Below, piece by piece: positions 3,551 to 37,869 of a DNA stretch of 64,000 nucleotides. The stretch spans positions 62,001 through 126,000 of the forward strand of contig JADCHX010000019.1 in NCBI GenBank assembly GCA_020248265.1, given 5' to 3'. Position 1 is the stretch's first letter. Every line of letters starts with the position of its first letter. This DNA comes from Rhodocyclaceae bacterium (lineage in GTDB: Bacteria > Pseudomonadota > Gammaproteobacteria > Burkholderiales > CAIKXV01). The translations under genes were made by a program, and so were the position numbers. The notes beneath the pieces were generated by a model. It saw only the letters and a program-made list of their open reading frames with translations. It ran no database searches and was not told where the DNA came from.

Positions 3551-5162
<1,612 letters not shown>

Positions 5163-5303
5163 CGGGTATCGATCAGTACGGTGTAGGTTCGGAAAGCGGG
5201 CACGGCATCGGCCGCGCCGGGGTGCCGGAGGGGTCCGGCGTGACGGCTGCAGCCGTTGCCGCCGGCAGGCGGGCGTGGGCCCGGGCGCCGTACGGGGACG
5301 GGA

Positions 5304-7025: not shown

Positions 7026-7144
7026 TGCTTTACCTCTGGGTACCGTGGGTACTTCTTGCGGGGGCTGCCATCCGGGTGGCACCGGGGTGCCGCGCCCGCG
7101 TGGACACCCGGACCCCATCCTGACGATTCGAAACCGAACCAGAG

Positions 7145-7173
7145 AGGCTACCGGCAAGGGGTCATGGGGTCAA
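7145..7173 (-). promoter_or_regulatory. Candidate sigma-70 promoter of ilvB, in a 302-base divergent spacer
   Basis: On the minus strand TTGACC (7173-7168) and TAGCCT (7150-7145) are separated by 17 bases, giving a predicted start near 7138 and a leader of about 113 bases before ilvB. The -35 is good and the -10 weak. The whole spacer 7026-7327 also holds an 11-bp hairpin (listed separately) and must carry the promoter of the sigma-factor gene on the other strand. I see no other gene in it. Confidence 0.4.
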
Positions 7174-7177
7174 GCAA

Positions 7178-7205
7178 CCCCCCTGCCGCGCGCACGGCAG
7201 GGGGG
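7178..7205. repeat. Perfect 11-bp inverted repeat between ilvB and the sigma-factor gene
   Basis: CCCCCCTGCCG (7178-7188) and CGGCAGGGGGG (7195-7205) form a perfect stem with a 6-base loop, directly upstream of the predicted ilvB -35. Neither strand has a T-run after it. It could be an operator, a cruciform-forming insulator between divergent promoters, or a terminator for spurious transcription; the role is unknown. Confidence 0.55.
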
Positions 7206-7327
7206 ATGTGCAGCGCGGCGGGTGGACGCAGCGGAGGCTTTGGTACCATTGCGCGCCCCGGACAGTCGTACGCAAGCGCCGTACCGGGCGGACTCCCCGC
7301 TGCGCACCCCCGTGACCGAGAACGATC

Positions 7328-7897
7328 CTGGCTTCAGAAAGTGAACTGTCGAGTTTCCTGACCGACGTCGAGCGGCGCGCCTTCAAGCAGGCGACCTATG
7401 CGGTGCGCGATCCAGAGGCCGGGCTGGACATCGTCCAGGATTCGATGATGAAGCTTGCCGAGAAGTATGCTGACAGGCCGGTTGAAGAATTGCCCATGCT
7501 GTTCCAGCGGATCCTCCAGAACACGATCCGCGACTGGTATCGGCGTACCAAGGTACGCAACACATGGACTACGCTTTTCTCGTCGTTCTCGGTCAACAAG
7601 GACGACGATGATGTCGATCCGCTCGAAACATTGCAGGCGGCGGCCGATCCGAATGGCCAGGGAATCAATCCGTCCGACCGCCTGCAACGCATCCAAACCC
7701 TTGAAACGATTGAGGAAGCATTGTCGCGGTTACCCGCACGTCAACGCGAAGCGTTCCTGCTTCGTTATTGGGAAGAACTCGATGTCTCCGAAACCGCAGA
7801 AGCCATGGGTTGTTCGGAAGGCAGTGTGAAGACACATTGCTCGCGAGCCACCCACGCGCTCGCCGAGCTGTTGAAAGCCAAAGGAATTTCCCTGTGA
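7328..7897 (+). CDS. RNA polymerase sigma factor, sigma-70/ECF type
   Basis: It directs RNA polymerase to a specific promoter set. Region 2 is visible as ALDIVQDSMMKLAEKYA-like sequence (DIVQD) followed by FQRILQNTIRDWYRR; region 4 as LPARQREAFLLRYWEELDVSETAEAMGCSEGSVKTH, a full helix-turn-helix. The start is uncertain: I chose CTG at 7328 because the residues it adds (ASESELSSFLTDVERRAFKQATYAV) match the family N terminus as I recall it; the first conventional start in frame is GTG at 7403, which would cut into region 2. The stop overlaps the next gene by 4 bases (GTGA). No anti-sigma factor with recognisable zinc motif is present, but the next gene may serve that role. Confidence 0.85.
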   Translation: MASESELSSFLTDVERRAFKQATYAVRDPEAGLDIVQDSMMKLAEKYADRPVEELPMLFQRILQNTIRDWYRRTKVRNTWTTLFSSFSVNKDDDDVDPLETLQAAADPNGQGINPSDRLQRIQTLETIEEALSRLPARQREAFLLRYWEELDVSETAEAMGCSEGSVKTHCSRATHALAELLKAKGISL

Positions 7898-8298
7898 ACG
7901 ACGCGCAATTCGGCAGTCAGGTCGCAGCGTTGCTCGACGAGGGGCTTTCTCGCGTCGAGCAGGACGTGCTCACCCGGCTGCAGGTGGCACGCAAGTCAGC
8001 GCTCGGCATCGCCGGCGCGCCGCGCCATGTGCGCGCGCTGGCGGTGGCCAGTGCCGGGTCGGCGACCGGTACCGGCGGCCTGCGGCACTGGTTCACCGGT
8101 CCGCGGCTGTGGCTCGCGCTCGGGATGCTCACGCTGGCGATCTCCGGGGCGACGCTGACCGAGTTCGGCTCGGATGCCGAAGCCGATGCCGCGGCAGACC
8201 TCGACCTCGCCATCCTCGCGGATGACCTGCCGGTGACGGCCTACATCGACAATGGGTTCGATACATGGCTGAAGCGCCCGGTCGAACCGCAGCAGTAG
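7894..8298 (+). CDS. DUF3619 family membrane protein, partner of the sigma factor
   Basis: This 134-residue protein starts at GTG 7894, overlapping the sigma-factor stop. It has a soluble N-terminal part (MNDAQFGSQVAALLDEGLSRVE), one membrane segment at about residues 70-88 (LWLALGMLTLAISGATLTEF), then an acidic stretch and a short C-terminal tail ending LKRPVEPQQ. DUF3619 proteins in betaproteobacteria commonly sit directly after this sigma factor. The layout (cytoplasmic N terminus, one span, outside domain) is compatible with an anti-sigma role, but this is inference; no zinc-binding anti-sigma motif is seen. Confidence 0.75.
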   Translation: MNDAQFGSQVAALLDEGLSRVEQDVLTRLQVARKSALGIAGAPRHVRALAVASAGSATGTGGLRHWFTGPRLWLALGMLTLAISGATLTEFGSDAEADAAADLDLAILADDLPVTAYIDNGFDTWLKRPVEPQQ

Positions 8299-8828
8299 GG
8301 GGCGACGCGGCCCACCAGACTTCACGGAGCCTGGTGGGCCGGTCCGCCCGCCGTCCTCGCGCCGCGCTGGGCACGTCCGCGCTGGTCGCGGTGATGTTTT
8401 CCTTCGGGGCCTTGCCGCTCGGCGGCACGGCTTGGGCCGTCGGCGCGGCGCATGCCGCCAGTGCGACCTCGGCACGCGCACCTGCGTGGGCGCAACTGCC
8501 GCAGGCGCAGAAAGCATTTCTTGCACCGATCGAAGAGAGCTGGGATTCACTCAGCGTCCAGACACGCCGCAAGCTGATCGGCATTGCGCAGCGGCAGGCC
8601 ACGATGACCTCGGAGCAGCGCGAGCGCGTGCAGTCCCGCCTGTCGCAGTGGGCACAGTTGTCGACCGAAGAACGTGACCTCGCGCGCAGGAACTACCAGC
8701 AATTGAACAGGCTCCCTCCCGACCAGCGGCAGGATCTCGCGCGTCGCTGGCAGGAAGCGAAGCAACCCGCGCCCGCAGGCACCGCAGAAGTCGGTGGCGA
8801 GGGAGCGACCCCGGCACCCCAGCAGTAG
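8265..8828 (+). CDS. DUF3106 family exported protein
   Basis: The 187-residue product has an N-terminal hydrophobic segment (about 38-62, ALVAVMFSFGALPLGGTAW) that looks like a signal peptide or anchor. A helical region of repeated W/R/L motifs follows (WAQLPQAQKAFL, LSQWAQLSTEERDLARRNYQQLNRLPPDQRQ), which is the DUF3106 pattern, and then a Pro/Ala tail. The helical W-x-x-L-S-x-E-E/Q-R motifs resemble periplasmic stress-sensor repeats, though no function is established. The ATG at 8265 overlaps the previous gene by 34 bases; a start further downstream would remove the n-region, so the start is only probable. Confidence 0.75.
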   Translation: MAEAPGRTAAVGGDAAHQTSRSLVGRSARRPRAALGTSALVAVMFSFGALPLGGTAWAVGAAHAASATSARAPAWAQLPQAQKAFLAPIEESWDSLSVQTRRKLIGIAQRQATMTSEQRERVQSRLSQWAQLSTEERDLARRNYQQLNRLPPDQRQDLARRWQEAKQPAPAGTAEVGGEGATPAPQQ

Positions 8829-8837
8829 GCGGGCCCG

Positions 8838-9278
8838 ATGGATTCCGCGCTCGCACCCACGGCGACGCTGCTGCGGCGCCTGGGCAGCCTGGTCTACGAA
8901 TCACTGATCGTGGTCGCGCTGCTGCTGCTGTCCGGCCTGGCCTTCCTGCTGCCGCTGCACGCCCTCACTGGCCATGATGCGTCGGGCGGCTGGGCGCTGT
9001 GGCTGTTCCGCGCGTGGATCCTGGCCGTGCTCGGCACCTACTTCGTCTGGTTCTGGACCCGTGGCGGGCAGACGCTGCCGATGCGCACATGGCGTCTGCG
9101 GGTCGTCGATGCCCGGGGATCTCCGCTGCGCCTTCGGCGGGCCCTCTACCGCTACCTCCTCGCATGGCCGAGTGTCCTCGCGGCTGGTGCCGGACTCGCC
9201 TGGGCACTCGTCGATCGCGACCGCCAGTTCCTCCACGATCGGCTGGCCGGCACGCGGCTGGTGCGCATCGAGGCCTGA
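8838..9278 (+). CDS. RDD family integral membrane protein
   Basis: At 146 residues it has the RDD family layout: a first pair of membrane helices (about 20-42 and 52-78), the family's R/D motif region around VVDARGSPLRLRRALYRYLLAWP, and a C-terminal D-R-D segment (LVDRDRQFLHDRLAGTRLV) with the conserved Asp residues. Role in the cell is not firmly known; some family members have been linked to ion transport. It ends the sigma factor-DUF3619-DUF3106-RDD series and is convergent with lptG. Confidence 0.85.
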   Translation: MDSALAPTATLLRRLGSLVYESLIVVALLLLSGLAFLLPLHALTGHDASGGWALWLFRAWILAVLGTYFVWFWTRGGQTLPMRTWRLRVVDARGSPLRLRRALYRYLLAWPSVLAAGAGLAWALVDRDRQFLHDRLAGTRLVRIEA

Positions 9279-9303
9279 CCGGCTGCCAAGGTCGAGACTG
9301 CGC

Positions 9304-10374
9304 TCAGCGCCTCTCGAAAAAGGCGATCAGGCCGACCGCGACCGACAGGAATGCCAGCGGCGCCAGCAGTGCGGTCAGCAACGGCGGCCAGTCGTACAGC
9401 CATCCGGCATGGGATGCCAGCGTGTTGAGGAAGAAGAAGGCCAGTCCCAGCATGATGGCGGCGAACACACGCGGTCCGGCGCTCGCCCGGCGCGCCTGCT
9501 GCGCGAACGGCAGCGCGAGTACCAGCATCACGACGATGCCGAGCGGATACGCCGCCTTGCGCCAGAGCGCGATCTCATAGCGGCTGGCTGCCTGCCGGTT
9601 GCCGCGCAGGTGCTGCACGTACTCCCAGAGGCTGGCTGCCGACATGGCATCGGGCTTGACCAGCAGCACGGTGAGCAATCCGGGCGTCAGCACGGATGTC
9701 CATTCGCGCGTGAGGGCGCGCTCCACGACCGTCCGATCTGCGTGGAAGCGCGTCTCGCTGACCGTCTCCATCTGCCAGCGGTTGTCGCCGACGTAGTTGC
9801 CCTGCGCGGCGACCCAGACGCGGCTAAGTCGCCATGCCGCATCGAACTCGTAGACGCGGACACCGAACAGCCGCAGCTCGGGCGTGACCTGCGCGACGTT
9901 GATGAAGCTGTTGCCGTCCTTCACCCACAGCCCCGACCGGAACTCCTGCGCAACGACCGCCGCCTTGGCCTGCAGGCGCAGCGCCTGGGCCGCGCGTTCC
10001 GCCGCCGGGGCGACCGCTTCGCCGACCAGCGCGCCGACCAGCGCGATGATCACGCCGGCACGCACCAGCACGAGCGCCATGCGCAACGCCGACACGCCGG
10101 AGGCCCGGATTACCGTGTACTCGGACTGCTGGGCCATCTGAGTCAGGGCGAAGGTGGTGCCGATCAAGGCTGCCACCGGCAGGATGCCGTACAAGTGGCC
10201 GGGCATGTTGAGCAGCACGAACAGGAACATCTCGCGCAGGCTGTACGAGCCTTTGCCCATGTCGTCGAGTTCGCCGATCAGGTCGAACAGCGCGAACAGG
10301 CCGAGCAGCCCGCCGGCCACCAGCGCGGTCGTGGTGTATATCTCGCGCCTCAGGTAGCGGCTGATGACCACCAT
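9304..10374 (-). CDS. lptG: LPS export ABC transporter permease LptG
   Basis: It is one of the two inner-membrane permeases of the LptB2FG machine that extracts lipopolysaccharide from the inner membrane and feeds it to the LptC-LptA-LptDE bridge. The 356-residue YjgP/YjgQ family protein starts MVVISRYLRREIYTTTAL, has N-terminal helices, a periplasmic beta-rich domain in the middle and three C-terminal helices (LGIVVMLVLALPFA, VFAAIMLGLAFFFLN, LLTVLLAPLAFLSV-like). The start is ATG at 10374; the open frame upstream belongs to the lptF region. It lies 11 bases after lptF, as an operon. Confidence 0.93.
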   Translation of the reverse strand: MVVISRYLRREIYTTTALVAGGLLGLFALFDLIGELDDMGKGSYSLREMFLFVLLNMPGHLYGILPVAALIGTTFALTQMAQQSEYTVIRASGVSALRMALVLVRAGVIIALVGALVGEAVAPAAERAAQALRLQAKAAVVAQEFRSGLWVKDGNSFINVAQVTPELRLFGVRVYEFDAAWRLSRVWVAAQGNYVGDNRWQMETVSETRFHADRTVVERALTREWTSVLTPGLLTVLLVKPDAMSAASLWEYVQHLRGNRQAASRYEIALWRKAAYPLGIVVMLVLALPFAQQARRASAGPRVFAAIMLGLAFFFLNTLASHAGWLYDWPPLLTALLAPLAFLSVAVGLIAFFERR

Positions 10375-24504: not shown

Positions 24505-26016
24505 CTAGCGCGGCACCTGTCTCAGGAATCGCACCCGCTCGATGTCCACCGCGTCGGTGAGCCAGCCTTGTATCCAGAAGCGGGTGAACGTTGGACGATC
24601 GTCAGCTGCGGCCTGCAGCCGGTCAAGCTGCAGGTAGAGCGACCGCGCCTCGGGCGCGGCGCCATGGAACAGGGCAATCATGGCTGCGCCGATGGCCACC
24701 GCCGTGCAGCGGCCCGGCCATCGCGCGCGCGCAGGCACCGCCGCCGCGGGCGGCAACAGGCAGGCAGCCGTCCATCCGGCGACGCCTGCCAGCATCAGCT
24801 GCGTGCACGGCATCACGATCACGCCATCCACCAGCGCGTTGATGGCGGCCCCGGTCAACGCAATGGCGAGCGCGACCCCGACCAACCGCTCCGCGCCACC
24901 ATCCGCCGGGGTATCCGTAACCTGCCGGCGCAGCCCCATCGACAGGCCCGACGCGGCACCGAGTACCGCAATGGCCATCAGCAAGCTCGCGGGCAGGCCC
25001 CACTCGGCAGCGATCTGCAACGGTGCGTTGTGGGGATGCGCAGCCACCGGGTTGACGTCCAGCGCGAGGCCCATCGGGCCGATGCCGAGCATCGGAAACT
25101 GTCCGATCCATCCCAGGGCCCTCGACCACAGCACGTCGCGCATGCTGAGACCAAACTGGCCGAGGCGGCCGAACGAGGCCTCCATCACGTCGAACTGCCA
25201 GCCCTCGATCAGCAGCGGCGGCAGCACATAGAACATCGCGTAGAACACTGCCGCGCTGCAGCACAGCGCGGCGGCCAGGGCCGACAGCATCGCCCGGCAG
25301 GGCGGACGAAACACGACCAGCACCGCCAGCGTGGCCGCCAGCCAGGCGTACCAGGTGGCTCGGCTCGCGGTGAGCAGCGCCAGCGCCAGGCTCATCACGA
25401 GTACGGCGAATGCCATTGCACGCCAGCGCGCCGGGAACGCCGGATACACGCAGGCAGCCAGCAACAACGGCAGTGCCATCGTGTGGAACTGTCCGAGGAA
25501 GCGGGGGTTCGAGAACCCGCCACGATACAGGTTGTCGACGACCAAGCCTGCGCCGCCGAACAGCGCGGCCGCGTAGGCGCTCATGAACTGCACGACCAGC
25601 ACGGTACCGGCCGCCACCACCATCGCCAGCGCGATGGCATCGAAGGCGCGCGGCGACCGCCGGGCCGCCATCACGCTCGTCACAAGCAGCGTCGACAGAG
25701 CGAACAGCGCCACTTCGAGCAGCCCGAACCGGGGGAAACCGCTCCAGATCGCCGAGACCACCCCCAGGCCCAGCGCCGCCATCCATGCGAGCGCGGTACG
25801 CCGCCCGAAGCGACCGGCCTGTACCAGCAGTCGGTCGCGCAGGCCGCTGTCGAACAGCCAGGTCGCACCGGCAGCCAGCAGCAGCAGACACTGCAGCATC
25901 CGCTGTGAATCGTGCCAGTCGCGCAGGTCGAACCAGCGCCATGCCATGGCAACAAGGAGACAGAGCGCGGTGCCGAAGGCAACCGCCTGTTCGGACGACA
26001 GGCGCGAGCGATTCAA
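24505..26016 (-). CDS. Pilin O-oligosaccharyltransferase of the PglL/TfpO (Wzy_C) family
   Basis: It probably transfers a lipid-linked glycan to the pilin encoded immediately upstream, at the periplasmic face of the inner membrane. The 503-residue protein has about ten membrane helices, the family's NPRFLGQFHTMALPLLL segment (about 175) and the catalytic-loop motif AAHPHNAPLQIAAEWGL (about 320), as in PglL, Wzy and WaaL. A C-terminal soluble part of about 55 residues follows. I start at TTG 26016 (M-NRSRLSSEQAVAFG), because the frame upstream crosses the pilA terminator; no ribosome site is evident. In Pseudomonas aeruginosa tfpO is likewise directly after pilA. Confidence 0.8.
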   Translation of the reverse strand: MNRSRLSSEQAVAFGTALCLLVAMAWRWFDLRDWHDSQRMLQCLLLLAAGATWLFDSGLRDRLLVQAGRFGRRTALAWMAALGLGVVSAIWSGFPRFGLLEVALFALSTLLVTSVMAARRSPRAFDAIALAMVVAAGTVLVVQFMSAYAAALFGGAGLVVDNLYRGGFSNPRFLGQFHTMALPLLLAACVYPAFPARWRAMAFAVLVMSLALALLTASRATWYAWLAATLAVLVVFRPPCRAMLSALAAALCCSAAVFYAMFYVLPPLLIEGWQFDVMEASFGRLGQFGLSMRDVLWSRALGWIGQFPMLGIGPMGLALDVNPVAAHPHNAPLQIAAEWGLPASLLMAIAVLGAASGLSMGLRRQVTDTPADGGAERLVGVALAIALTGAAINALVDGVIVMPCTQLMLAGVAGWTAACLLPPAAAVPARARWPGRCTAVAIGAAMIALFHGAAPEARSLYLQLDRLQAAADDRPTFTRFWIQGWLTDAVDIERVRFLRQVPR

Positions 26017-26036
26017 GGGGGGATACGGGCAGGGCC

Positions 26037-26067
26037 AAAAAAAAGCCCCTGGCACAGGCCAGGGGCT
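26037..26067 (-). terminator. Intrinsic terminator of pilA
   Basis: On the minus strand AGCCCCTGGC and GCCAGGGGCT (26067-26058 and 26053-26044) form a perfect 10-bp stem with a 4-base loop, followed by eight T. It lies 19 bases after the pilA stop and 21 bases before the chosen oligosaccharyltransferase start, so that gene would be read only by readthrough. Confidence 0.9.
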
Positions 26068-26085: not shown

Positions 26086-26574
26086 TCAGCTGCGGACAAA
26101 GCCTGTGCGCGACCGAGCGCAAAGGTCTGGTCCGGACGAAGTATAGGACCAGACCACCGCAGTCGCAGTGACGGTGGCGACCGCGGTCACGATACAACCT
26201 GCAGTCAAGGCTGCGCCGTCGGCACCCGTTTGCGCGGTCAATGTCCAGGTCGAGGTGCCGCCCAAACCGTTGGTACCCGCAGTTGCACCAAGACTCAAAA
26301 GATCAACCCGCGCCGGAGGGTTGCCAAGGGTAGTCGGCAAGGCATTAAGACCCAACTCAATATTGGTTCTACAAATGGTGGGATCGCCAGCACTACGCTG
26401 GATACACTCCGACACGGAGGTACGGATCGACGAGAACTCGGACATCGTGTTCGCCCAACGCGTGCGGCTCACGTAGTCCTGATACTGCGGAATGGCAACG
26501 GCAGCGAGAATACCGATGATCGCAACCACGATCATCAGTTCGATCAGGGTGAAGCCTTTTTGAATCGTTTTCAT
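26086..26574 (-). CDS. pilA: Type IV major pilin (type IVa prepilin)
   Basis: It is the main subunit of type IV pili. The 162-residue prepilin has leader MKTIQKG, cleavage before Phe8, then the hydrophobic helix [20 protein letters not shown] with the key Glu at mature position 5. A tyrosine pair region ([15 protein letters not shown]) and a head with four cysteines follow, including a C-terminal disulfide-type loop (AGC ... PDLC). The last residue is Ser, of interest because P. aeruginosa group I pilin is glycosylated on its C-terminal serine. Start ATG 26574 follows GGAGATGAT. A sigma-54 site lies about 65 bases upstream and a strong terminator follows. Confidence 0.95.
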
Positions 26575-26819: not shown

Positions 26820-28439
26820 TCAGCCGCGGAAACCCGGGATCGCTGCCATATCGACGTCGTCGATCTGCTCGGGATCGAGGAACTGCTCGGCGTAGCGCAG
26901 GTAGACTTTCTCGCGCAGGAAGACATCGAACAGGTCGGGGTCGATGTGGCCGTTGATCCGCATCCTGCCGAGGATGGTCAATGCCTCCGTCAGGGTCTTT
27001 CCGGCCTTGTAGGGACGGTCTTTGGCGGTCAGCGCCTCGAACACGTCGGCGATCGCCATCATGCGCGCCTGCACCGACATCTGCTCGCCCGACAGCCCGC
27101 GCGGATAGCCCCTGCCATCCATCCGCTCGTGGTGCCCGCCAGCGAACTCGGGCACGTTCTGCAGGTGCTTGGGCCAGGGCAGCGCCTCGAGCATCTGGAT
27201 CGTGACGTCGATGTGGTGGTTGATGACCCGGCGCTCTTCCTCGGTGAGCGTGCCGTGCGGGATGGTCAGGTTGGCGATCTCGTCGGCTGTCAGCAAAGGC
27301 GTTTCGAAACCCGCCTCGTCCATCCGCGGCCAGCGGGTGGCGATCTCGTGCACGCGCGCCCGGTCTTCGGCACTCATCGATTCGCTGCCGATGTTCGCCC
27401 CGCGCAGGAAGTCGCGGTCTTCGTTCACCGCCCGCACCCGCCGCTTCAGCTCGGCCTCCATGTCGACCAGGTTGGCCCGCTCGCCCGCCTGCATCGCGGC
27501 GATGCGTTCGCGCAGGAGTTCGACCTCGAGGTCGCGGCGCACGATCTCGAACCGGGTGTCGATCAGGTGGATCCGGTCGAAGATGGTCTCGAGCTTGGTG
27601 GCCTTGTCCACCACGTGAACAGGGGTCGTCACCTTGCCGCAGTCGTGCAGCAGCCCCGCGATCTTGAGTTCGTAGCGCTGCGCGTCGTCCATGCCGAAGT
27701 CGGCCAGCGGGCCGGTGGTGGTGGCGCACGCTGCATCGGCCAGCATCGTCGTCAGCACCGGCACCCGCGCGCAATGCCCCCCGGTATAGGGCGACTTGTC
27801 GTCGATGGCCGAGTTGATGAGGTTGATGAACGACTCGAACAGATTCTCGAGATGGGAGATCAGCAGCCGGTTGGTCAGCACCACCGCAGCCTGCGACGCC
27901 AGCGACTCTGCCAGGCGCTGATCGGTGCCGGAAAACGGGTGCACGGCACCCGAAGCATCCCGGGCGTTGATCAACTGCAGCACGCCGATGATCTCGTCCT
28001 CGTGGTTCTTCATGGGGACGGTCAGGAACGAGCGCGAGCGGTAGCCGGTCTGCCTGTCGAAACGCCGCGTCCCAGAGAAGTCGAAGCCCGCCTCGGCGTA
28101 GGCATCCTCGATATTGACGGTGCGATCCTGGTTCACCGCGCAGGCGGCGACGTTGTGCACGTTGGGCGCCCCGTCGTCCTCGAACAGCGGGATCGGCGCG
28201 AACGGCACCTTGAGCCCGGTGCTGCCGCCCATCGCGATGCCCAGCGAGTCGGTGCGGATGATCTCGAAGGCCAGCGACCGGCGGTCGTCGCCGACGCGAT
28301 AAAGCGTCCCGCCATCGGCGCGGGCGATATGCTTCGCGGCCACCAGGATCGACTCCAGCAGGCGATCGATGTCCTTCTCGCGGGACAGGGCTGCGCCGAC
28401 CTCGTTCAGGTACTCGAGGCGCGCCAGCATGTCGTCCAC
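26820..28439 (-). CDS. GAF-HD-GYP cyclic-di-GMP phosphodiesterase
   Basis: It would hydrolyse cyclic-di-GMP in response to a signal bound by the GAF domain. The 539-residue protein has a GAF domain at about 8-180 (DIDRLLESILVAAKHIARADGGTLY ... FLTVPMKNHEDEIIGVLQLINA), then an HD-GYP domain with all key parts: HCARVPVLTTML, the dyad GLLHDCGK, a 120-residue charged insert, HHIDVT, and GHHERMDGRGYPRGL. The insert (about 275-390) is a helical region rich in Arg/Glu that I do not recognise from short HD-GYPs. It follows the GAF-ATPase gene by 11 bases, and both have related GAF domains. Confidence 0.9.
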   Translation of the reverse strand: MDDMLARLEYLNEVGAALSREKDIDRLLESILVAAKHIARADGGTLYRVGDDRRSLAFEIIRTDSLGIAMGGSTGLKVPFAPIPLFEDDGAPNVHNVAACAVNQDRTVNIEDAYAEAGFDFSGTRRFDRQTGYRSRSFLTVPMKNHEDEIIGVLQLINARDASGAVHPFSGTDQRLAESLASQAAVVLTNRLLISHLENLFESFINLINSAIDDKSPYTGGHCARVPVLTTMLADAACATTTGPLADFGMDDAQRYELKIAGLLHDCGKVTTPVHVVDKATKLETIFDRIHLIDTRFEIVRRDLEVELLRERIAAMQAGERANLVDMEAELKRRVRAVNEDRDFLRGANIGSESMSAEDRARVHEIATRWPRMDEAGFETPLLTADEIANLTIPHGTLTEEERRVINHHIDVTIQMLEALPWPKHLQNVPEFAGGHHERMDGRGYPRGLSGEQMSVQARMMAIADVFEALTAKDRPYKAGKTLTEALTILGRMRINGHIDPDLFDVFLREKVYLRYAEQFLDPEQIDDVDMAAIPGFRG

Positions 28440-28450
28440 ATCGCCCCCGG

Positions 28451-30892
28451 TTACTTGATGCAGACCGCGCGTACCTGCTGGATGTCGGTGATGCCGAGCA
28501 GCACCTTCTCGATGCCGTCCATCTTCAGTGTGCGCATGCCTTCTTCGAGCGCGATCGCCAGCAGATCTGCGACGCGGGCGTGTTCCTGGATTCCCTTCTT
28601 CAGGCGGTCGGTGCCGATCAGCAGTTCATGCAGGCCCGCCCTGCCCTTGTAGCCAGTGCCGTTGCAGGTGTCGCAGCCGACCTTGCTTTGGAGCACGATC
28701 TCGCCCTTCGGGTTGCCGAACTGGCGGACCCAGCGCTGGCGGACCTGCTCGCGTGCCGCCTCGGGGTCTTTCTTCCAGGTTTCGGTCTGCCGGAGTTCCT
28801 GCACGTATTCGTCGAGCAGCAGCGTGAGTTCGTCCTCGCCGGCGACCCGCGGCTTGCGGCACTTCGAGCACAGCCGTTTCGCCAGGCGCTGCGCGAGGAT
28901 GCCGAGCAGCGCGTCGGAGAAGTTGAACGGGTCCATGCCCATGTCGAGCAGGCGGGTGATCGACTCCGGCGCGCTGTTGGTGTGCAGCGTGGCGAACACC
29001 AGGTGGCCGGTTAGGGACGCCTCGATGCCGATCGCAACGGTTTCCTTGTCGCGCATCTCGCCGACCATGATCACGTCGGGATCGGCCCGCAGGAAGGCCT
29101 TCATGGCGGTGGCGAAGGTCAGCCCGGCCTTCGGGTTCATCTGCACCTGGCGCAGCCCGCGCTGCGTGATCTCGACCGGGTCTTCCGCCGTCCAGATCTT
29201 GGTCTCGGGCGTGTTGATGTAGCCGAGCACCGAGTGCAGCGAAGTGGTCTTGCCGGAGCCCGTCGGGCCGCAGACGAAGAACAACCCGTACGGCTTGGTG
29301 ATCGCGCCCTTGAGCAGGCCGAGGTTGTGGTCCGACACGCCCAGCTTGTCGAGCGGGATCGGCTCGCCTGCGGCCAGGATACGCATCACGATATCCTCGA
29401 CGCCGCCCTGACTGGGGATGGTCGCGACCCGCAGTTCGATGTCGAGCGGGCCGAACTTGCGGAACTTGATCTTGCCGTCCTGCGGCCTGCGCTTCTCGGA
29501 GATGTCGAGGTCGCACATGATCTTCAACCGCGCGGCGATCGCCTGGCGGTAGCTGGCCGGCACCTCGATGTAGTTGTGCAGCGAGCCGTCCCTGCGGAAG
29601 CGGATCAGCGTCTTCTGCTTGCCGGGGCCGGGCTCCACATGGATATCCGACGCGCCCTGATGGTACGCATCGATGATGATCTTGTTCACCAGCCGGACCA
29701 CTTCGTTCTCGGAGGCGGCCGAGAGTTCGGCAACCGCGGAGCCCTCGTCTTCGGCCTCTTCCGACAGTTCGGAGAGCAGGTCGCCGACCGAGCTGGTATC
29801 GACCGCGATTTCCGGGCCGCCGCCGCCGAACACCTGGTTCATCGTCGCGGCGAACTCGCGCTTCGTCGTGACCCGGTAATCGACCTTCGCCTTCGGGAAC
29901 ACGTTGGCGACCTGGCGCGAACCACGCACCTTCTCGGGGTCGGTGCAGAGCACGACCAGGCCGTCCTTGCCCTCTTCGAGCGGCAGCCAGCCGCTCTCGG
30001 CGGCGAATTCGCGCCGGATGTTCTTCAGCAGATCGAGCGGCTTGAGCCGGTCGGCACGGAACGGCTCGTAGGGGCACTGGAAGAACAGCGCCAGCGACTC
30101 GCCGAGCAGCGGGACCTTGACCTGGAATTCGTCGATCAGCACATCTTCGATATCGATGTTCTTGCGCCGCGACGAGCGCAGTGCGAGCTCCATCTCGTCT
30201 GCGGACAGCACGGCACCCGCGACAAGCTGGTCGTACTTGCCACGGATCTTGAACGCCGGCTGCTTCTGCCGCTGCAGCACCGCGATCGCCAGCGTCTCGG
30301 CCAGCTGGCGCGCACCGTCCTCGGCGGTCTTCGAGAATGCCTCGCCCGTGCGGGAGTTGATGAGCTGGATCACGCCGACGAGGGGCCCCTGGGCCGCGCT
30401 GCCGGCACCCGGCTGCGCCTGCCTGACCGACTCGCAGATGGGAACGACCAGCATGTGCCGGGTGCGGTAGCCGGTACGCTTGTCGACTTCCTTCAGGAAG
30501 TGCAGCTGCGGACTGTAGCGCTTCAGTTCGTCGTCGTTGTAGACGTCTGCGACGTTGACCACGCGCCGGGTGCTCGCCACGAACCCCGCGATGCTCTGCT
30601 CGTTGATCGGAAGCTTCAGGTCCTTGAACGAATTCAGACCGGTCTTGACCTTCGAGACGATCGAATTGCCGTCTTCCGTGCTGACGTAGATGGTCAGCCG
30701 GTCGGCTTCGAACAGCGCGCAGATGTCCTGCGACAGCTCGACCATGATCTCGTCGAGTTCGCTCAAGGAGTGGATGCGGTTCGTGACCGCCTGCAGGCCC
30801 TGCGAAAACCTGAGCCTGTCCGCCAGCACTTCCCCGCCAGCTGCGGACGCCCCACCCTGCGCCTGGGGCCGGGTTTCGAGAACGCTGCTCAT
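28451..30892 (-). CDS. GAF-domain GspE/PilB-type secretion ATPase
   Basis: It is a hexameric traffic ATPase of the type II secretion/type IV pilus class. Of 813 residues, about 35-205 form a GAF sensor, with a middle region (220-350) partly like the T2SSE N domain. The ATPase has Walker A GPTGSGKT (542-549), the Asp-box and Walker B (LRADPDVIMVGEMRD, 601-615), the His-box LVFATLHTN and a four-cysteine zinc site (Cys675, 678, 740, 743). Normal GspE/PilB lacks GAF. No gspF/pilC or other pilus assembly gene lies in the window. It sits between the hydrolase and GAF-HD-GYP genes on one strand. Confidence 0.9.
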   Translation of the reverse strand: MSSVLETRPQAQGGASAAGGEVLADRLRFSQGLQAVTNRIHSLSELDEIMVELSQDICALFEADRLTIYVSTEDGNSIVSKVKTGLNSFKDLKLPINEQSIAGFVASTRRVVNVADVYNDDELKRYSPQLHFLKEVDKRTGYRTRHMLVVPICESVRQAQPGAGSAAQGPLVGVIQLINSRTGEAFSKTAEDGARQLAETLAIAVLQRQKQPAFKIRGKYDQLVAGAVLSADEMELALRSSRRKNIDIEDVLIDEFQVKVPLLGESLALFFQCPYEPFRADRLKPLDLLKNIRREFAAESGWLPLEEGKDGLVVLCTDPEKVRGSRQVANVFPKAKVDYRVTTKREFAATMNQVFGGGGPEIAVDTSSVGDLLSELSEEAEDEGSAVAELSAASENEVVRLVNKIIIDAYHQGASDIHVEPGPGKQKTLIRFRRDGSLHNYIEVPASYRQAIAARLKIMCDLDISEKRRPQDGKIKFRKFGPLDIELRVATIPSQGGVEDIVMRILAAGEPIPLDKLGVSDHNLGLLKGAITKPYGLFFVCGPTGSGKTTSLHSVLGYINTPETKIWTAEDPVEITQRGLRQVQMNPKAGLTFATAMKAFLRADPDVIMVGEMRDKETVAIGIEASLTGHLVFATLHTNSAPESITRLLDMGMDPFNFSDALLGILAQRLAKRLCSKCRKPRVAGEDELTLLLDEYVQELRQTETWKKDPEAAREQVRQRWVRQFGNPKGEIVLQSKVGCDTCNGTGYKGRAGLHELLIGTDRLKKGIQEHARVADLLAIALEEGMRTLKMDGIEKVLLGITDIQQVRAVCIK

Positions 30893-30938
30893 GGTGGGTT
30901 GCCCCCGGGTCGGAATCGCATCATGTCGATCATGGCTG

Positions 30939-31715
30939 TCAGAACTCGAACTGCTGGAACGTCAGCAGCATCTGCGGGGCGAACCGGCCCGCGCACGACT
31001 GGATTTCCTCCATGATGGCCTCGTACTCGCCCGGCTTCAAGTGCGTGATGTAAATGTCGACCTGCCGCTGCAGCTTTTCGAGCTCGTCGGCCAGCATCAT
31101 CGGACTCAGGTGTTTGGATGTACGCGCGAGGTCATGTTCCCGGTTGCGGAACGCGGTCTCGATGATCAGGTAGCGGAGGTTGTCGATGCGGTTGACCATC
31201 GGCCAGAGGGCCTCGTTGACCGTCGTGTCGCCGGTATACACCAGGCTTGCCCGACCACTGTCGAGGTGGTAGCCGACCGCAGGCACCACATGATTTGCCG
31301 GCAACGGCGTGATGCTGCGCCCTCGCCCCAGGTCGAGCCGCTCCCCGACAGCTACCGGCTGGTAGTGCATCCACGGATTCAGTGCATCGGGAATCTGCGC
31401 GAAATCCGGCCACAGCTTCCAGTTGAACAGATGCTGGCGCAGCACCTCGATGGTCTCGGGCAGCGCATGCACGGTGAGCGGACGGTCGCGCATCCAGCCG
31501 ACCGTATCGACCAGGAATGGCAGCGACGTCACGTGGTCCAGGTGGGAGTGCGTCAGGAACACCCGATCGATACGCTGGAGCTCTTCGATGTTGAGGTCTC
31601 CGACGCCGGTTCCGGCATCGACCAGCACATCTTCGTCGAGCACGAACGACGTCGTGCGCAGACTGCCGCCGATACCGCCACTGCAACCGAGCACGCGCAA
31701 CTTCATCCGGGACAT
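30939..31715 (-). CDS. Metallo-beta-lactamase-fold hydrolase, class II cyclic-nucleotide phosphodiesterase-like
   Basis: The 258-residue soluble protein has the metal motif THSHLDH (about residues 55-61), an early LRVLGCSGGIGGSLRTTSF segment, a distal PANHVVPAVGYH and TGDTT, and ITHLKPGE near the end. That arrangement is the one seen in class II cAMP phosphodiesterases and related RNase Z-like hydrolases. The substrate cannot be told from sequence; a cyclic nucleotide is attractive because both neighbours carry GAF domains. It lies between the FHA protein gene (185-base spacer) and the GAF-ATPase gene (46-base spacer). Confidence 0.8.
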   Translation of the reverse strand: MSRMKLRVLGCSGGIGGSLRTTSFVLDEDVLVDAGTGVGDLNIEELQRIDRVFLTHSHLDHVTSLPFLVDTVGWMRDRPLTVHALPETIEVLRQHLFNWKLWPDFAQIPDALNPWMHYQPVAVGERLDLGRGRSITPLPANHVVPAVGYHLDSGRASLVYTGDTTVNEALWPMVNRIDNLRYLIIETAFRNREHDLARTSKHLSPMMLADELEKLQRQVDIYITHLKPGEYEAIMEEIQSCAGRFAPQMLLTFQQFEF

Positions 31716-31900
31716 CTGCCTTGTCTGTGATAACGTCCACCCGGGAAGATGTCGTCCCCGTGTCGTCCGTCACAGCACGAGCGAGACATACTACCGATCC
31801 CCGGCGCTCCGAAGCGCCTTCGGGACGTATCCTCACCAGGTTGATGCTTATCGGCAGCCAGCCGCCGGCCTTGAGCGGTGGCCGCAGCACAGCCATCGGA

Positions 31901-32785
31901 TCAATCGGGCTTGTGGAAGAACTCCATCTTGACGCCCGCCAGATCGATGATGTCGTGATCGTGCAATTGCCGCGGTTGTCCGTCGAGCGCGTTTCCGTTG
32001 ACGCTCGGATACTGCACCCCCTCGACATGCGTGAGGAAGAAGCCGTGCGGGCGCCGGGTGATGACTGCCACCTGCACACCCGGCTTGCCGAGCGTGGTGA
32101 GGTTCTTCACGAGGTCCAGTTCCTTGCCGGCGCTCGGACCCGTGAGGATCTGGATCGCTGCAGGTGGTGGCGATGCAGGGCGCGGCGCCGGTATCGATGC
32201 GCTCGCAGCCGACGCTGGCGCCATCGCCGGGGAGAGACCGGCCAGCGGCTGCGGGACGCCTTGCGCGACGGGCGGCGCAGACGCCGGGGACGAAGACTGC
32301 TGGCCCACCACGCTGGTCGACAGCGCGGGCATCGGACCCGGCACGGTCGCGGTCGGGTCGACGTAGCCACCCGGACGCGTGCTGGTCGGATCGCCGGCGC
32401 GCGGGCTGCCGGGCGCCGATGCCGGCTGGGCGGCTGCGACCTGGGCCGGGCGCAGCAGCATGGTCTTCTCGAAGTCGCCGGCCGAGGCCTGGGACGCCTT
32501 CTCGTTGATGTACTTGAGCTTGTACTTCCCGATCTCGACAACGTCGTTGTTCTGCAGGAAATGCTTCTTGATCGGGTGGCCGTTGACCGTCGTCCCGTTC
32601 GTGCTGCCGAGATCCTCGAGAAACGAATCGTTCAGGATCGTGACGATCGCCGCATGTTCGCCGCTGACGGCGAGATTCTCGATGCGCACGTCGTTGTGCG
32701 GCTTGCGACCGACGGTCGTGCGCTCCTTGACGAGGTCGACCTCGTCAAGCACCTGCCCGTCCACACTGATAATCAATTTTGCCAT
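31901..32785 (-). CDS. Protein with two FHA domains joined by a Pro/Ala linker
   Basis: FHA domains bind phosphothreonine in partner proteins. The 294-residue protein has an intact N-terminal FHA (about 1-95: GR at 26-27, Ser41, His44 and STNG around Asn63). A linker of about 115 residues rich in Pro, Ala and Ser follows, then a second FHA-like domain (about 212-292) in which the phosphate-binding Arg and Ser/His are not conserved (LGKPGVQVAV, SVNG retained). ATG 32785 gives MAKLIISVDG; the longer frame runs into the phosphatase gene. It lies 17 bases after the PP2C gene. It presumably reads phosphorylation that the phosphatase erases; no kinase is in the window. Confidence 0.9.
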   Translation of the reverse strand: MAKLIISVDGQVLDEVDLVKERTTVGRKPHNDVRIENLAVSGEHAAIVTILNDSFLEDLGSTNGTTVNGHPIKKHFLQNNDVVEIGKYKLKYINEKASQASAGDFEKTMLLRPAQVAAAQPASAPGSPRAGDPTSTRPGGYVDPTATVPGPMPALSTSVVGQQSSSPASAPPVAQGVPQPLAGLSPAMAPASAASASIPAPRPASPPPAAIQILTGPSAGKELDLVKNLTTLGKPGVQVAVITRRPHGFFLTHVEGVQYPSVNGNALDGQPRQLHDHDIIDLAGVKMEFFHKPD

Positions 32786-32802
32786 GGCGAGGTGGTTATA
32801 CC

Positions 32803-33627
32803 TTATTTTAACCAGGACATAAATCTGGACATCCAGCCGGCTTCGGCCGAAAACGGTCCGTTCACCTGCACCAGCACGACCGACACGTTGTCCCGCCCGC
32901 CGTAGTCGTTGGCCGTCTGCACCAGTTGGTCGGCCGCCAGTTGCAGGTTCGCCTTCAGCGTGTCGAGCGTGCTGTGGATCTCGGCTTCCGGGATCATGTC
33001 GGACAACCCGTCCGAGCACAGCAGGTAGATGTCACCTGGCAGCGCTTCGTAGCTGTGGATCTCGGTCTCGACCTCCGGGTCGACCCCGAGCGCGCGCGTG
33101 ACCAGATTCTTGTTCATGGAATGCCGCGCGTCTTCCTTGGAGATCATCCCGCTGTCGATCTGCTCCTGGAGCAGGGAGTGGTCGCGCGTGATCTGCTCGA
33201 AACTGTCACCGCGCAGACGGTACAGCCGGGAGTCGCCGATGTGGGCGACCGATACCTGGTTGTCGACGAACAGCACCGAAACCAGCGTGGTACCCATTCC
33301 AGCGTACTGCGGCTGGGTCTGCGACGAATGGAAGATCGACGCGTTCGCCAGGGTGGACTGTTCGCGCAATACGCGTTCCGCGCGCTGCACTGGCGAAGCC
33401 TCCGAGTTGGACGGATCCGTGTCAGCCAGCGCCTTGCGCACTTCCTCGCGGATGAGTGCCACGGCGATGCCACTTGCGACCTCGCCGGCGTTGTAGCCAC
33501 CCATGCCGTCTGCCAGGATCGCGAGCCCGATATCGGGCTCGATGGCAAGGCTGTCTTCATTGTGGGAGCGAACCATGCCCGGATCGGTGCTGCTGGCCAT
33601 GGTCAACGCAGTGGAAAGGTCGGTCAT
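32803..33627 (-). CDS. PP2C-family serine/threonine protein phosphatase (Stp1/PppA type)
   Basis: It removes phosphate from Ser/Thr residues using two metal ions. The 274-residue protein shows the bacterial PP2C motifs in order: MVRSHNEDS, ILADGMGGYNAGEVAS, VAHIGDSRLYR, LLCSDGLSDM and GGRDNVSVVLV, so all metal-binding aspartates are present. ATG 33627 is the family start. It is the first gene of a minus-strand series with the FHA, hydrolase, GAF-ATPase and GAF-HD-GYP genes. In other bacteria PP2C and FHA genes near a secretion ATPase mark threonine-phosphorylation control of secretion. Confidence 0.93.
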   Translation of the reverse strand: MTDLSTALTMASSTDPGMVRSHNEDSLAIEPDIGLAILADGMGGYNAGEVASGIAVALIREEVRKALADTDPSNSEASPVQRAERVLREQSTLANASIFHSSQTQPQYAGMGTTLVSVLFVDNQVSVAHIGDSRLYRLRGDSFEQITRDHSLLQEQIDSGMISKEDARHSMNKNLVTRALGVDPEVETEIHSYEALPGDIYLLCSDGLSDMIPEAEIHSTLDTLKANLQLAADQLVQTANDYGGRDNVSVVLVQVNGPFSAEAGWMSRFMSWLK

Positions 33628-33677: not shown

Positions 33678-33813
33678 CGGGATGATGCCAGCATCTCGAG
33701 GCATTCGCGCAGCGCAGCTGACCGCTCGTCGGCGCGACACCGAAGAATCCGACGGACGCCCCGCGCCGCATGCGCCGGGATCGCGTGCGGGCGCGCCCGT
33801 CCCGAGCCCTGGT

Positions 33814-34762: not shown

Positions 34763-36034
34763 TTATTTCGGCTTCTTCGGCGGGGCAGTGAATGCACCGG
34801 CCGTCTTGAGCGCGTCGACCTTCTGCGCGTCGTATCCGAGCACCGCGGTCAGCACCTCGTCGGTGTGCTCGCCCAGCGTGGGCGAACGCTCGATCTTCGC
34901 GGGCGACGCGGACAGCTTGATCGGCATGCCCACGTTGTACCACTTGCCGCGCTGCGGATGGTCGAGCTCGACCATCATCTCGCGGCCCTTCACATGCTCG
35001 TCGGTGAACAGATCCTCGGTCGACATGATCGGGCCGCAGGGCACGTTCAACTCGTTCAGGATGCCCATCATCTCGCGCTTGGTGTGCTTGCGCGCGAACT
35101 CGCCGAGCATCTCCCAGATCGAGGCCTGGTTGCGGCGGCGCTCGTCGATCGTCGAGAAGCGCGGGTCGGTGTCGAGGCCGGGTTCGCCGAGGTCGGGGCC
35201 GATGCGTTTCGCGAGCGCGACCCAGACCGCCTCCTGGACCACGACGTAGATGAAGTCGTTCGGACCGCCGGGCGCGCAACGGATCGCGTTGCCGAGCTGG
35301 CCACCGCCGGAATCGTTGCCGGCACGCGGCGTCTCGCCCATTCCCTTGTGCGTACCGACCGAATACTCGGCCAGCGGACCATGCCACAGCCGCTGGTGGT
35401 CGCGCCACTTGACGCGGCAGAGGTTCATCACGCCGTCCATCATGGCGACTTCGACATACTGGCCGACGCCGTCACGGTCGCGCTGGTGGAGCGCCGCGAG
35501 CAGGCCGATCGCCAGGTGCAGGCCGGTGCCCGAGTCGCCGATCTGCGCGCCCGTGACGAACGGCGGCCCGTCGGGCACGCCGGTGGTGCTCATCGCCCCG
35601 CCCATCGCCTGCGCCACGTTCTCGTAGGCCTTGAAGTCGGCGTACGGACCGGAGGAACCGAATCCCTTGATCGACCCCATGACGATACGCGGGTTGATCT
35701 CGTGGACCTTTTCCCAGGTGAAGCCAAGGCGGTCGAGCACGCCCGGACCGAAGTTCTCCATCACGATGTCACAGGTCTTCAGCAGGTCGGTGAACACCTG
35801 CCGTCCCTCGGCGGTCTTCATGTTCACGGTGATCGAACGCTTGTTGCAGTTGAGCATCGTGAAATAGAGGCTGTCGGCACCGGGCACGTCACGCAGCTGA
35901 CCGCGCGTCGCGTCACCCTGCGGCGGCTCGAACTTGATCACGTCGGCCCCCATCCAGGCGAGCAACTGCGAACAGGTGGGACCCGCCTGCACATGGGTCA
36001 TGTCGAGAATTCGAACGTCCTTCAGGGCTTGCAT
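34763..36034 (-). CDS. frc: Formyl-CoA:oxalate CoA-transferase (family III)
   Basis: It transfers CoA from formyl-CoA to oxalate, giving oxalyl-CoA for the decarboxylase encoded upstream. The 423-residue protein aligns well with Frc as I remember it: THVQAGPTCSQ near the N terminus, the catalytic aspartate in GAQIGDSGTGLH (Asp167), a GGGQ glycine loop near residue 258 and LGEHTDEVL near the end. At the site of Trp48 in Oxalobacter Frc it has Gln (TRGQLRD), like E. coli YfdW. ATG 36034 is preceded by a near-perfect AGGAGGTGAC. A large palindrome separates it from oxc. Confidence 0.93.
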   Translation of the reverse strand: MQALKDVRILDMTHVQAGPTCSQLLAWMGADVIKFEPPQGDATRGQLRDVPGADSLYFTMLNCNKRSITVNMKTAEGRQVFTDLLKTCDIVMENFGPGVLDRLGFTWEKVHEINPRIVMGSIKGFGSSGPYADFKAYENVAQAMGGAMSTTGVPDGPPFVTGAQIGDSGTGLHLAIGLLAALHQRDRDGVGQYVEVAMMDGVMNLCRVKWRDHQRLWHGPLAEYSVGTHKGMGETPRAGNDSGGGQLGNAIRCAPGGPNDFIYVVVQEAVWVALAKRIGPDLGEPGLDTDPRFSTIDERRRNQASIWEMLGEFARKHTKREMMGILNELNVPCGPIMSTEDLFTDEHVKGREMMVELDHPQRGKWYNVGMPIKLSASPAKIERSPTLGEHTDEVLTAVLGYDAQKVDALKTAGAFTAPPKKPK

Positions 36035-36049
36035 GTCACCTCCTGTGCG

Positions 36050-36102
36050 GGGGTCAGGTCTTGAGTTTTGCATCTGTGATGCAAAACTCAAGACCTGACC
36101 CC
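36050..36102. repeat. REP-like 25-bp perfect palindrome between oxc and frc
   Basis: The arm at 36050-36074 (beginning GGGGTCAGGTCTTGAG) is the exact reverse complement of 36078-36102, with only a TGT loop. The stem is 25 bp. It looks like the GGGGTCAGGTCTTGA-type dispersed palindromes seen near RAYT transposases in betaproteobacteria, as I recall. In the oxc-frc mRNA it would form a very strong hairpin just before the frc ribosome site and could set the ratio of the two products. Confidence 0.85.
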
Positions 36103-36114
36103 ATGTTCCACGAT

Positions 36115-37869
36115 TTACTTCTTCTTCGCGGCTGACGGGTTGAGGCTGGTGATGCGTCCGCTTTCCGTTCCAGCGGTCTCGTCGATCACCGCATTGATCA
36201 GGGTCGGCCGCCGCGAACGGACGGCTTCTTCCATCGCAGCGCGCAGTTCGGCCGGCGTCGTCGCATGGACGCCGGTGCCGCCGAAAGCCTCCATCAGCCT
36301 GTCGTAGCGCGCGCCCTTCACGAACACGGTAGGCGCCACGTCGGCGCTGCCCGACGGATTGACGTCGGTGCCACGATAGACGCCGTTGTTGTTGAAGACG
36401 ACGATGCACACCGGCAGGTTGTAGCGGCAGATCGTCTCGACTTCCATGCCGGAGAAGCCGAACGCGCTGTCACCCTCGATCGCGATGACCTGCTCGCCGC
36501 TGACCACGGCGGCCGCCACGGCGAAGCCCATGCCGATCCCCATCACGCCCCAGGTGCCGACGTCGAGCCGCTTGCGCGGCTTGTACATGTCGACGATGCT
36601 GCGCGTGAAGTCGAGTGCATTGGCGCCCTCGTTCACCATGATCGCGTCCGGGTTCGCCTTGAAGATGTCGCGTACCACGTTGAGCGCGCTGTGGAAGTTC
36701 ATCGGCGAAGGATCCTTCGCCAGCGTCTCGGCCATCTTCGCGATGTTGCGGTTCTTCCGGTCGGCCACCGCCGACAGCCACTCCGCCGGCGGCTTCTGCC
36801 AGCCGCTGTCCATGCCCGCCAGCAACGCCGACACGCACGAGCCGATGTCCCCGACCAGCGGTGCGTCGATCGCGACGTTGCTGTCGGCCTCCTGCGGCGA
36901 GATGTCGATCTGGATGAACTTCTGCCCACCCGCGTCCTTGTGCGACTTGCCGCCCCAGGTCTTGCCCTTGCCGTGCGACAGCAGCCAGTTCAGGCGCGCG
37001 CCCACCAGCATCACCACGTCAGCCTCGGGCAGCACGAACGACCGCGCAGCTGCGGCCGACTGCTCGTGGGTATCCGGGAGCAGTCCCTTCGCCATCGACA
37101 TGGGCAGGTAGGGAATGCCGGTCTTCTCGACCAGCGCACGGATATCGGCATCCGCCTGGGCATAGGCCGCACCCTTGCCGAGCAGGATCAGCGGCCGCTT
37201 CGCGCCCTTCAGCAGGTCGAGCGCACGCTGCACGGCATCGGGCGCCGGGATCTGGCGCGGCGCCGGATCGACCACCTTGATCAGCGAACGCCGCCCAGCC
37301 TGGGCATCCATGGTCTGCGCGAACAGCTTCGCCGGCAGGTCGAGGTAGACCCCGCCGGGACGGCCGGACACCGCCGCGCGGATCGCACGGGCCACGCCGA
37401 CACCGATGTCCTCGGCATGCAGTACGCGGAACGCCGCCTTGCACAGCGGCCGGGCGATGGCCAGCTGGTCCATTTCCTCGTAGTCGCCCTGCTGCAGGTC
37501 GACGATCTCGCGCTCGCTCGAGCCGCTGACCAGGATCATCGGGAAACAGTTGGTGGTGGCGTTGGCGAGCGCCGTCAGGCCGTTCAGGAAGCCCGGCGCC
37601 GATACCGTCAGGCAGATGCCGGGCTTCTGGGTCATGAAGCCGGCGATCGCCGCAGCGTTGCCGGCATTCTGTTCATGCCGGAACGAGATCACGCGCACTC
37701 CCTCCGCCTGAAGCATCCGGGTGAGGTCGGTGATCGGGATACCCGGCAGGCCGAACACGGTATCGATGCCGTTCAGCTTCAACGCTTCGATGACCAGGTG
37801 GAAGCCGTCGATCTGTTCGGCTTGCGGTACGTCCGCCGGGGCGGAGACTTGCGGTTCAACGGTGCCCAT
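36115..37869 (-). CDS. oxc: Oxalyl-CoA decarboxylase (thiamine diphosphate enzyme)
   Basis: It decarboxylates oxalyl-CoA to formyl-CoA and CO2. The 584-residue enzyme has an N-terminal TPP domain with the catalytic Glu in [17 protein letters not shown], a central domain, and a C-terminal TPP domain with [31 protein letters not shown]. The [16 protein letters not shown] and GVYRGTD stretches and the context with frc mark it as Oxc rather than acetolactate synthase. It ends with a basic KKK tail. It is transcribed divergently from the Crp/Fnr-family gene, and a -10 hexamer (TACAGT) sits 23 bases from the shared FNR-type box. No ribosome site stronger than AGGA before ATG 37869. Confidence 0.95.

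Follow-up and report, generated by a model that had tools for sequence, protein, structure and literature searches.

A pilA-adjacent signalling block in a Rhodocyclaceae bacterium: core of a reduced betaproteobacterial operon that may control a type IV pilus motor through cAMP and phosphothreonine

What do a Ser/Thr phosphatase and a phosphothreonine reader do beside a pilus-type motor ATPase, in a stretch of DNA that holds no matching kinase? The question is raised by a block of genes in the window (the whole 64,000-nucleotide stretch analysed here), which the first-pass annotation had described as five consecutive minus-strand genes lying directly ahead of pilA. Coordinates and domain matches bear this out: genes for a PP2C phosphatase, an FHA protein, an MBL-fold hydrolase, a GAF-MshEN-T2SSE ATPase and a GAF-HD-GYP protein follow one another, and the pilin gene (26574–26086) comes next. 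These genes, with a further neighbour and two remnants discussed below, are:

32803–33627, minus strand: PP2C-family Ser/Thr phosphatase, Stp1 type (274 aa; NF033484, 251.8 bits)
31901–32785, minus strand: FHA adaptor (294 aa; PF00498, 7.7e-20)
30939–31715, minus strand: MBL-fold hydrolase, class II cyclic-nucleotide phosphodiesterase-like (258 aa; PF12706; PF02112, 53.5 bits)
28451–30892, minus strand: GAF-MshEN-T2SSE motor ATPase of the PilB/GspE superfamily (813 aa; PF00437, 7.6e-113; PF01590, 1.7e-10)
26820–28439, minus strand: GAF-HD-GYP protein, predicted cyclic-di-GMP phosphodiesterase (539 aa; PF13487, 2.9e-45; GAF, 3e-13)
26086–26574, minus strand (ATG at 26574): pilA, type IVa major pilin-like (162 aa; N_methyl PF07963, Pilin PF00114)
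24505–26055, minus strand: Wzy_C/O-antigen-ligase-like gene, probable pilin glycosyl transferase (PF04932, 3.8e-13; weak TfpM match)
31781–31898, minus strand: scar of a deleted CHASE2-adenylate cyclase gene, from within the cyclase-domain coding region (blastn to sister genomes)
33686–33735, minus strand: scar of a deleted CHASE2-kinase gene, the last ~49 bp of the frame, running into old intergenic DNA (match to G010; weaker than the cyclase scar)

The catalytic motifs of all block enzymes are intact. The pilA product carries the N-methylation motif, and the Wzy_C-like gene downstream of it is conserved within the genus. At the other end, a formyltransferase gene precedes the block, and directly upstream of that gene stands a pair for oxalate breakdown (34766–37869), comprising formyl-CoA transferase (TIGR03253) and oxalyl-CoA decarboxylase (TIGR03254).

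A scan for the motor in one genome per species returned more than 586 loci, and the best 80 of these, all from Burkholderiales in the broad sense, were examined with their flanks. The genes stay together in these relatives, usually in the order formyltransferase, CHASE2-Ser/Thr kinase, PP2C, FHA, CHASE2-adenylate cyclase, MBL, motor, HD-GYP, pilA. A kinase gene thus does join the block in most relatives, upstream of PP2C; the kinase (~850 aa) and the cyclase (~745 aa) had their domains confirmed by Pfam. Among 88 loci in which PP2C and FHA precede the motor (three are duplicates), 71 have both CHASE2 enzymes. Because relatives were chosen by motor similarity, these frequencies apply to carriers of the motor rather than to all Betaproteobacteria. 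An arrangement met with again in dozens of Burkholderiales genomes is not a product of chance. The operon can also be smaller: in Herbaspirillum/Noviherbaspirillum-type loci (L037, L042, L054), MBL, HD-GYP and CHASE2-cyclase genes lie beside the motor, divergent from it, and kinase, PP2C and FHA are all missing, so that the cAMP module and the motor can evidently stand alone. The block in the window is what remains of a conserved operon of Betaproteobacteria from which two membrane enzymes were deleted.

The matching Ser/Thr kinase that had been reported missing from the window is accordingly the relatives' CHASE2-kinase, which lies directly upstream of PP2C there and has been deleted here. 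Both CHASE2 genes are gone, leaving gaps of ~200 bp each between formyltransferase and PP2C and between FHA and MBL. Within the same genus, both enzymes are kept in six genomes (G001, G003, G005, G008, G009, G010) and lost from three (G000, which is the genome of the window, G007 and G004); in G002 the cyclase is gone and the kinase position falls beyond the contig end. In blastn, the FHA–MBL gap (31781–31898) matches the cyclase genes of G003 (78% over 55 bp), G009 (79% over 53 bp) and G008 (70% over 108 bp), and G004 retains a longer cyclase scar (324 bp, 72%). The formyltransferase–PP2C gap matches positions 4129–4292 of the G010 locus (72% over 164 bp), where the kinase frame ends near 4178; ~49 bp of the match is therefore kinase coding sequence and the remainder is spacer beyond the kinase. 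By these alignments, the two intergenic gaps are deletion scars, one left by the cyclase gene and the other by the end of the kinase gene.

Aligned with one another, the cyclase scars of G000, G007, G002 and G004 share a 5' breakpoint to within ~10 bp. In a concatenated tree of the operon, G004 stands apart from the window clade (G000/G002/G007; loci L151, L149, L153). That a common breakpoint persists despite this separation suggests a single deletion followed by recombination of the operon between species; two independent double losses within the genus were considered and not adopted, as all four scars share the breakpoint. Relocation of kinase and cyclase to another place in the genome was likewise rejected: only one CHASE2 protein is left and no CHASE2-kinase. 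The remaining CHASE2 protein is an unrelated-looking cyclase, at no more than 129 bits against the type found in the operon. More widely, the kinase has been lost with PP2C and FHA kept in about nine clades. Kinase and cyclase were lost in the same direction in five of nine contrasts and never in opposite directions, which falls below significance (p ~0.06), and their co-loss on the tree is suggestive only.

The genes left behind have not been released from selection. Among lineages that lost the membrane enzymes, dN/dS was 0.08–0.15 for PP2C, 0.18–0.20 for FHA and 0.08–0.10 for MBL, in each case the same as among intact lineages, and with motor and HD-GYP included the five genes span 0.06–0.20, again matching intact lineages. 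Such unchanged constraint after the loss implies that the parts are still in use. The idea that a phosphatase without its kinase is mere decay was rejected on the same values.

On the phospho side of the block, the phosphatase reaches the Stp1/IreP equivalog cut-off of 230 bits and has the motifs DGMGG, GDSR, SDG and DN. The FHA protein has the canonical FHA residues in its N-terminal domain (R27, S41, H44, N63), and residues 1–98 of its AlphaFold model match the FhaB/OdhI/GarA structures with Z ~16. It scores 50.3 bits against the OdhI equivalog (cut-off 200) and 40.6 bits against T6SS TagH/Fha (TIGR03354, cut-off 120.25), that is, below both cut-offs, so with OdhI only the fold matches. In the model a disordered linker follows the FHA domain and leads into a second, beta-rich domain, which may be FHA-like to judge by its strand pattern and sequence position. 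The linker holds the stretch DFEKTMLLR, with T108 (DFEKTM(V/I)LR in orthologs). T108 and the FHA residues are invariant in 31 of 31 proteins, and the linker threonine is kept in every complete ortholog, including those of kinase-less lineages. By analogy with OdhI (PMC9769921), we propose that T108 is the target of kinase and PP2C and the ligand of an FHA domain, in the same protein or in a partner.

The cyclic-nucleotide side is centred on a GAF domain fused to the motor. Its best profile match in the PDB is Anabaena CyaB2 (1ykd, 4.5e-33), followed by the HD-GYP protein PmGH, PDE10 and PDE2. CyaB2 was crystallized with cAMP, which its GAFb domain contacts through R291, T293, I308, D356 and N359 (PMC4411481). 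These positions align with R65, T67, V82, D137 and T140 of the motor, and among 31 orthologs R65, T67, D137 and T140 are invariant and V82 is conserved in at least 90%; a threonine replaces N359 in PDE10 as well. The NKFDE motif, on the other hand, is only partly kept (N179 and F186 are invariant, K is changed to N or S, and D is not conserved), which counts against cyclic-nucleotide binding. The contact residues suggest that the motor GAF domain may bind cAMP. The GAF domain of the HD-GYP protein has PDE5 as its best PDB match, an incomplete NKFDE motif and no counterpart of the Arg contact. Its HD-GYP domain matches PmGH (4mcw), with HDCGK in 92 of 92 orthologs and HHExxDGxGYP in 91 of 92 (HHERMDGRGYP here). 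As to the MBL protein, an initial reading as a possible cyclic-nucleotide hydrolase gains strength from its score to class II cAMP phosphodiesterases (PF02112, gathering score 23.7), from yeast PDE1 being its nearest structure (4ojv, 8.3e-10, with an FNxxIWPD stretch in common) and from the adenylate cyclase gene adjacent to it in most relatives; its metal and catalytic motifs HxHLDH, GDT and THLKP are intact.

What, then, does the motor drive? It falls below the cut-offs of the PilB equivalog (TIGR02538, 469.2 bits vs 675.65), the TfpB equivalog (NF053534, 368.5 bits vs 850) and GspE, while its Walker A (GPTGSGKT), Walker B (GEMRD) and His box (TLHTN) are present in 107 of 107 orthologs. Control by c-di-GMP through MshEN was the expected reading, as MshEN domains that bind this ligand carry two RLGxx(L/V/I)2xxG(L/V/I)2xxxxLxxxLxxQ motifs (PMC5013675). 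It was rejected: the motif is lost in all 107 orthologs, with the Arg and Gln positions replaced, and the motor family has its own conserved residues in that place. The genome has pilMNOPQ, pilC-pilD-coaE-zapD and pilT/pilU, and a search for PilB above the TIGR02538 cut-off found none here or in the whole genus. Usually, pilB precedes pilC. In this genome pilC-pilD-coaE-zapD comes directly after a CorC/GldE-like gene that takes this place, with no pilB (L181, G000:C4:684000-700000, ~6000–9600). Given a complete type IV pilus core without canonical PilB, the GAF motor, beside a TfpB encoded separately at C5 (901.6 bits vs 850), is probably an extension ATPase in this organism. In the TfpB region (L097, G000:C5:97000-109000), the TfpB-type motor gene is immediately followed by one for a PAS-rich GGDEF-EAL protein (4500–9903), a possible c-di-GMP partner of TfpB.

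A survey of 60 relatives, in which PilM-positive families were counted and the genus entered once, gave 11 families with the block and no PilB, 11 with both, 17 with PilB and no block, and one with neither. PilB loss among pilM-bearing families is thus largely confined to carriers of the block motor (Fisher p 0.0043, from counts that ignore shared ancestry). Three genomes (G024, G025, G045) combine PilM with the block motor while lacking both a PilB above the cut-off and a TfpB ortholog; together with the PilB counts they fit a GAF motor able to extend pili. In one further PilM-positive genome (G057) the block motor, PilB and TfpB are all missing, so other motors can suffice.

We therefore read the block as the reduced core of an operon through which cAMP and phosphothreonine control the extension motor of a type IV pilus, and give this reading a probability of roughly 0.5. 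Ancestrally, the operon would have had two branches, each fed by a CHASE2 receptor in the membrane. The CHASE2-kinase would phosphorylate the linker threonine of the FHA protein and PP2C would strip the phosphate off again, with the FHA domain reading the phosphothreonine and acting as a switch on the motor. The CHASE2-adenylate cyclase would produce cAMP and the MBL class II phosphodiesterase would degrade it, with the motor GAF domain sensing cAMP directly; the GAF-HD-GYP enzyme may respond to a cyclic nucleotide and bring c-di-GMP down. The lineage of the window then lost both membrane enzymes by deletion, and selection kept acting on the parts downstream of them. The pathway from phosphoprotein and cyclic-nucleotide signals to motor control envisaged by the first-pass annotation is likewise a proposal.

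That annotation had left the motor as one for secretion or a pilus. The pilus half is favoured by the adjacent pilA, the type IV pilus core and the missing canonical PilB, and secretion fits less well. Service in a secretion or pseudopilus system of type II-like or MSHA-like kind is conceivable, as PilB, GspE and MshE ATPases resemble one another closely, the motor falls under both the PilB and GspE cut-offs, and an Msh-like secretin-ATPase-GspF cluster exists at C11 of the same genome; yet that cluster has its own ATPase, the canonical pilC locus is the one without a motor, and the neighbours of the block are genes for a type IVa pilin and a pilin-glycosylase-like Wzy_C protein, so we regard a secretion role as unlikely. 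Harder to set aside, if still doubtful, is an accessory role like that of TfpB in Acinetobacter baylyi: TfpB would here be the main extension ATPase, with the GAF motor priming or modulating pili and the block tuning pilus number. TfpB is present in this genome and in most PilB-less carriers, and canonical PilB is kept beside the block in 11 carrier families. Against this, G024, G025 and G045 carry the block motor and PilM in the absence of both PilB above the cut-off and TfpB, and the block motor is the only motor to adjoin pilA. Finally, the deletion of two genes with scars, and the recurrent loss of the kinase, might mean that the block is decaying and controls nothing any more, but this is very unlikely given the dN/dS of the five remaining genes, their intact catalytic motifs and the retention of T108.

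Several known systems resemble parts of the block. PilB and TfpB motors (PMC11656802) belong to the same superfamily as the block motor and have the same fold order, an MshEN-like N-domain and then T2SSE; the block motor likewise has Walker and His boxes and a C-terminal Cys motif, and differs by its extra N-terminal GAF domain of cyclic-nucleotide type and by the family-wide loss of the c-di-GMP motif. In the threonine phosphorylation pathway of T6SS (PpkA-PppA-Fha1/TagH), kinase, PP2C and FHA genes similarly adjoin the machine they control, whereas here the machine would be a pilus motor, the kinase is a CHASE2 receptor and a cAMP branch is added. The phospho-switches OdhI and GarA (PMC9769921) have the nearest FHA fold and a threonine in a flexible segment beside it, but that segment precedes the FHA domain there and follows it in the block protein, which also has a second FHA-like domain and whose presumed partner is the motor and not oxoglutarate dehydrogenase. 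ArnA and ArnB of archaea (PMC6509490) include an FHA protein that controls a type IV-pilus-like machine, the archaellum, in a phosphorylation-dependent manner; they do so by repressing archaellum gene expression, while the FHA gene of the block lies inside the motor's own operon together with a cAMP branch. In Pseudomonas, type IV pili are likewise under cAMP regulation (Pil-Chp/CyaB-Vfr; PMC11656802), but there cAMP acts on transcription via Vfr, in contrast to a motor that itself bears a cyclic-nucleotide-type GAF domain. Among open-access papers we found no description of this operon. The single ingredients are known; their combination appears undescribed, above all that of a pilus motor bearing a cyclic-nucleotide-type GAF domain with a dedicated cyclase, phosphodiesterase, kinase and phosphatase in one operon.

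If the preferred reading is right, cAMP exerts a direct, post-translational second-messenger control over a type IV pilus motor, in contrast to the known cAMP route, which is transcriptional, and to the known direct ligand of such motors, which is c-di-GMP. It would also give a function to the kinase-phosphatase-FHA-cyclase operon of dozens of Burkholderiales genomes and explain how pilus-bearing Burkholderiales live without PilB. More speculatively, some of the Betaproteobacteria may have exchanged canonical PilB for a pilus-extension ATPase that cAMP gates directly through its fused GAF domain and that is gated in parallel by a phospho-switch of receptor kinase, phosphatase and FHA protein; certain lineages, that of the window included, would then have given up the membrane receptors of the operon in favour of cAMP-responsive kinases from other loci.

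Since the remaining genes are under purifying selection, their partners probably act in trans. The genome encodes four Ser/Thr kinases, two of which have a C-terminal cNMP-binding domain (C4:516085, C11:370333), as well as three class III cyclases outside the block, and in about eight relatives an ortholog of the C4:516085 kinase is encoded on the downstream side of the block, at a distance of a few kb. These two kinases and the other class III cyclases probably now supply the inputs. The cNMP-binding kinases (L096:4984-6333, L095:6283-7890) are reminiscent of cAMP/cGMP-dependent kinases. Elsewhere on C4, two further Ser/Thr kinases lie close together, both of them fusions with tandem receiver domains (L094:2753-8864).
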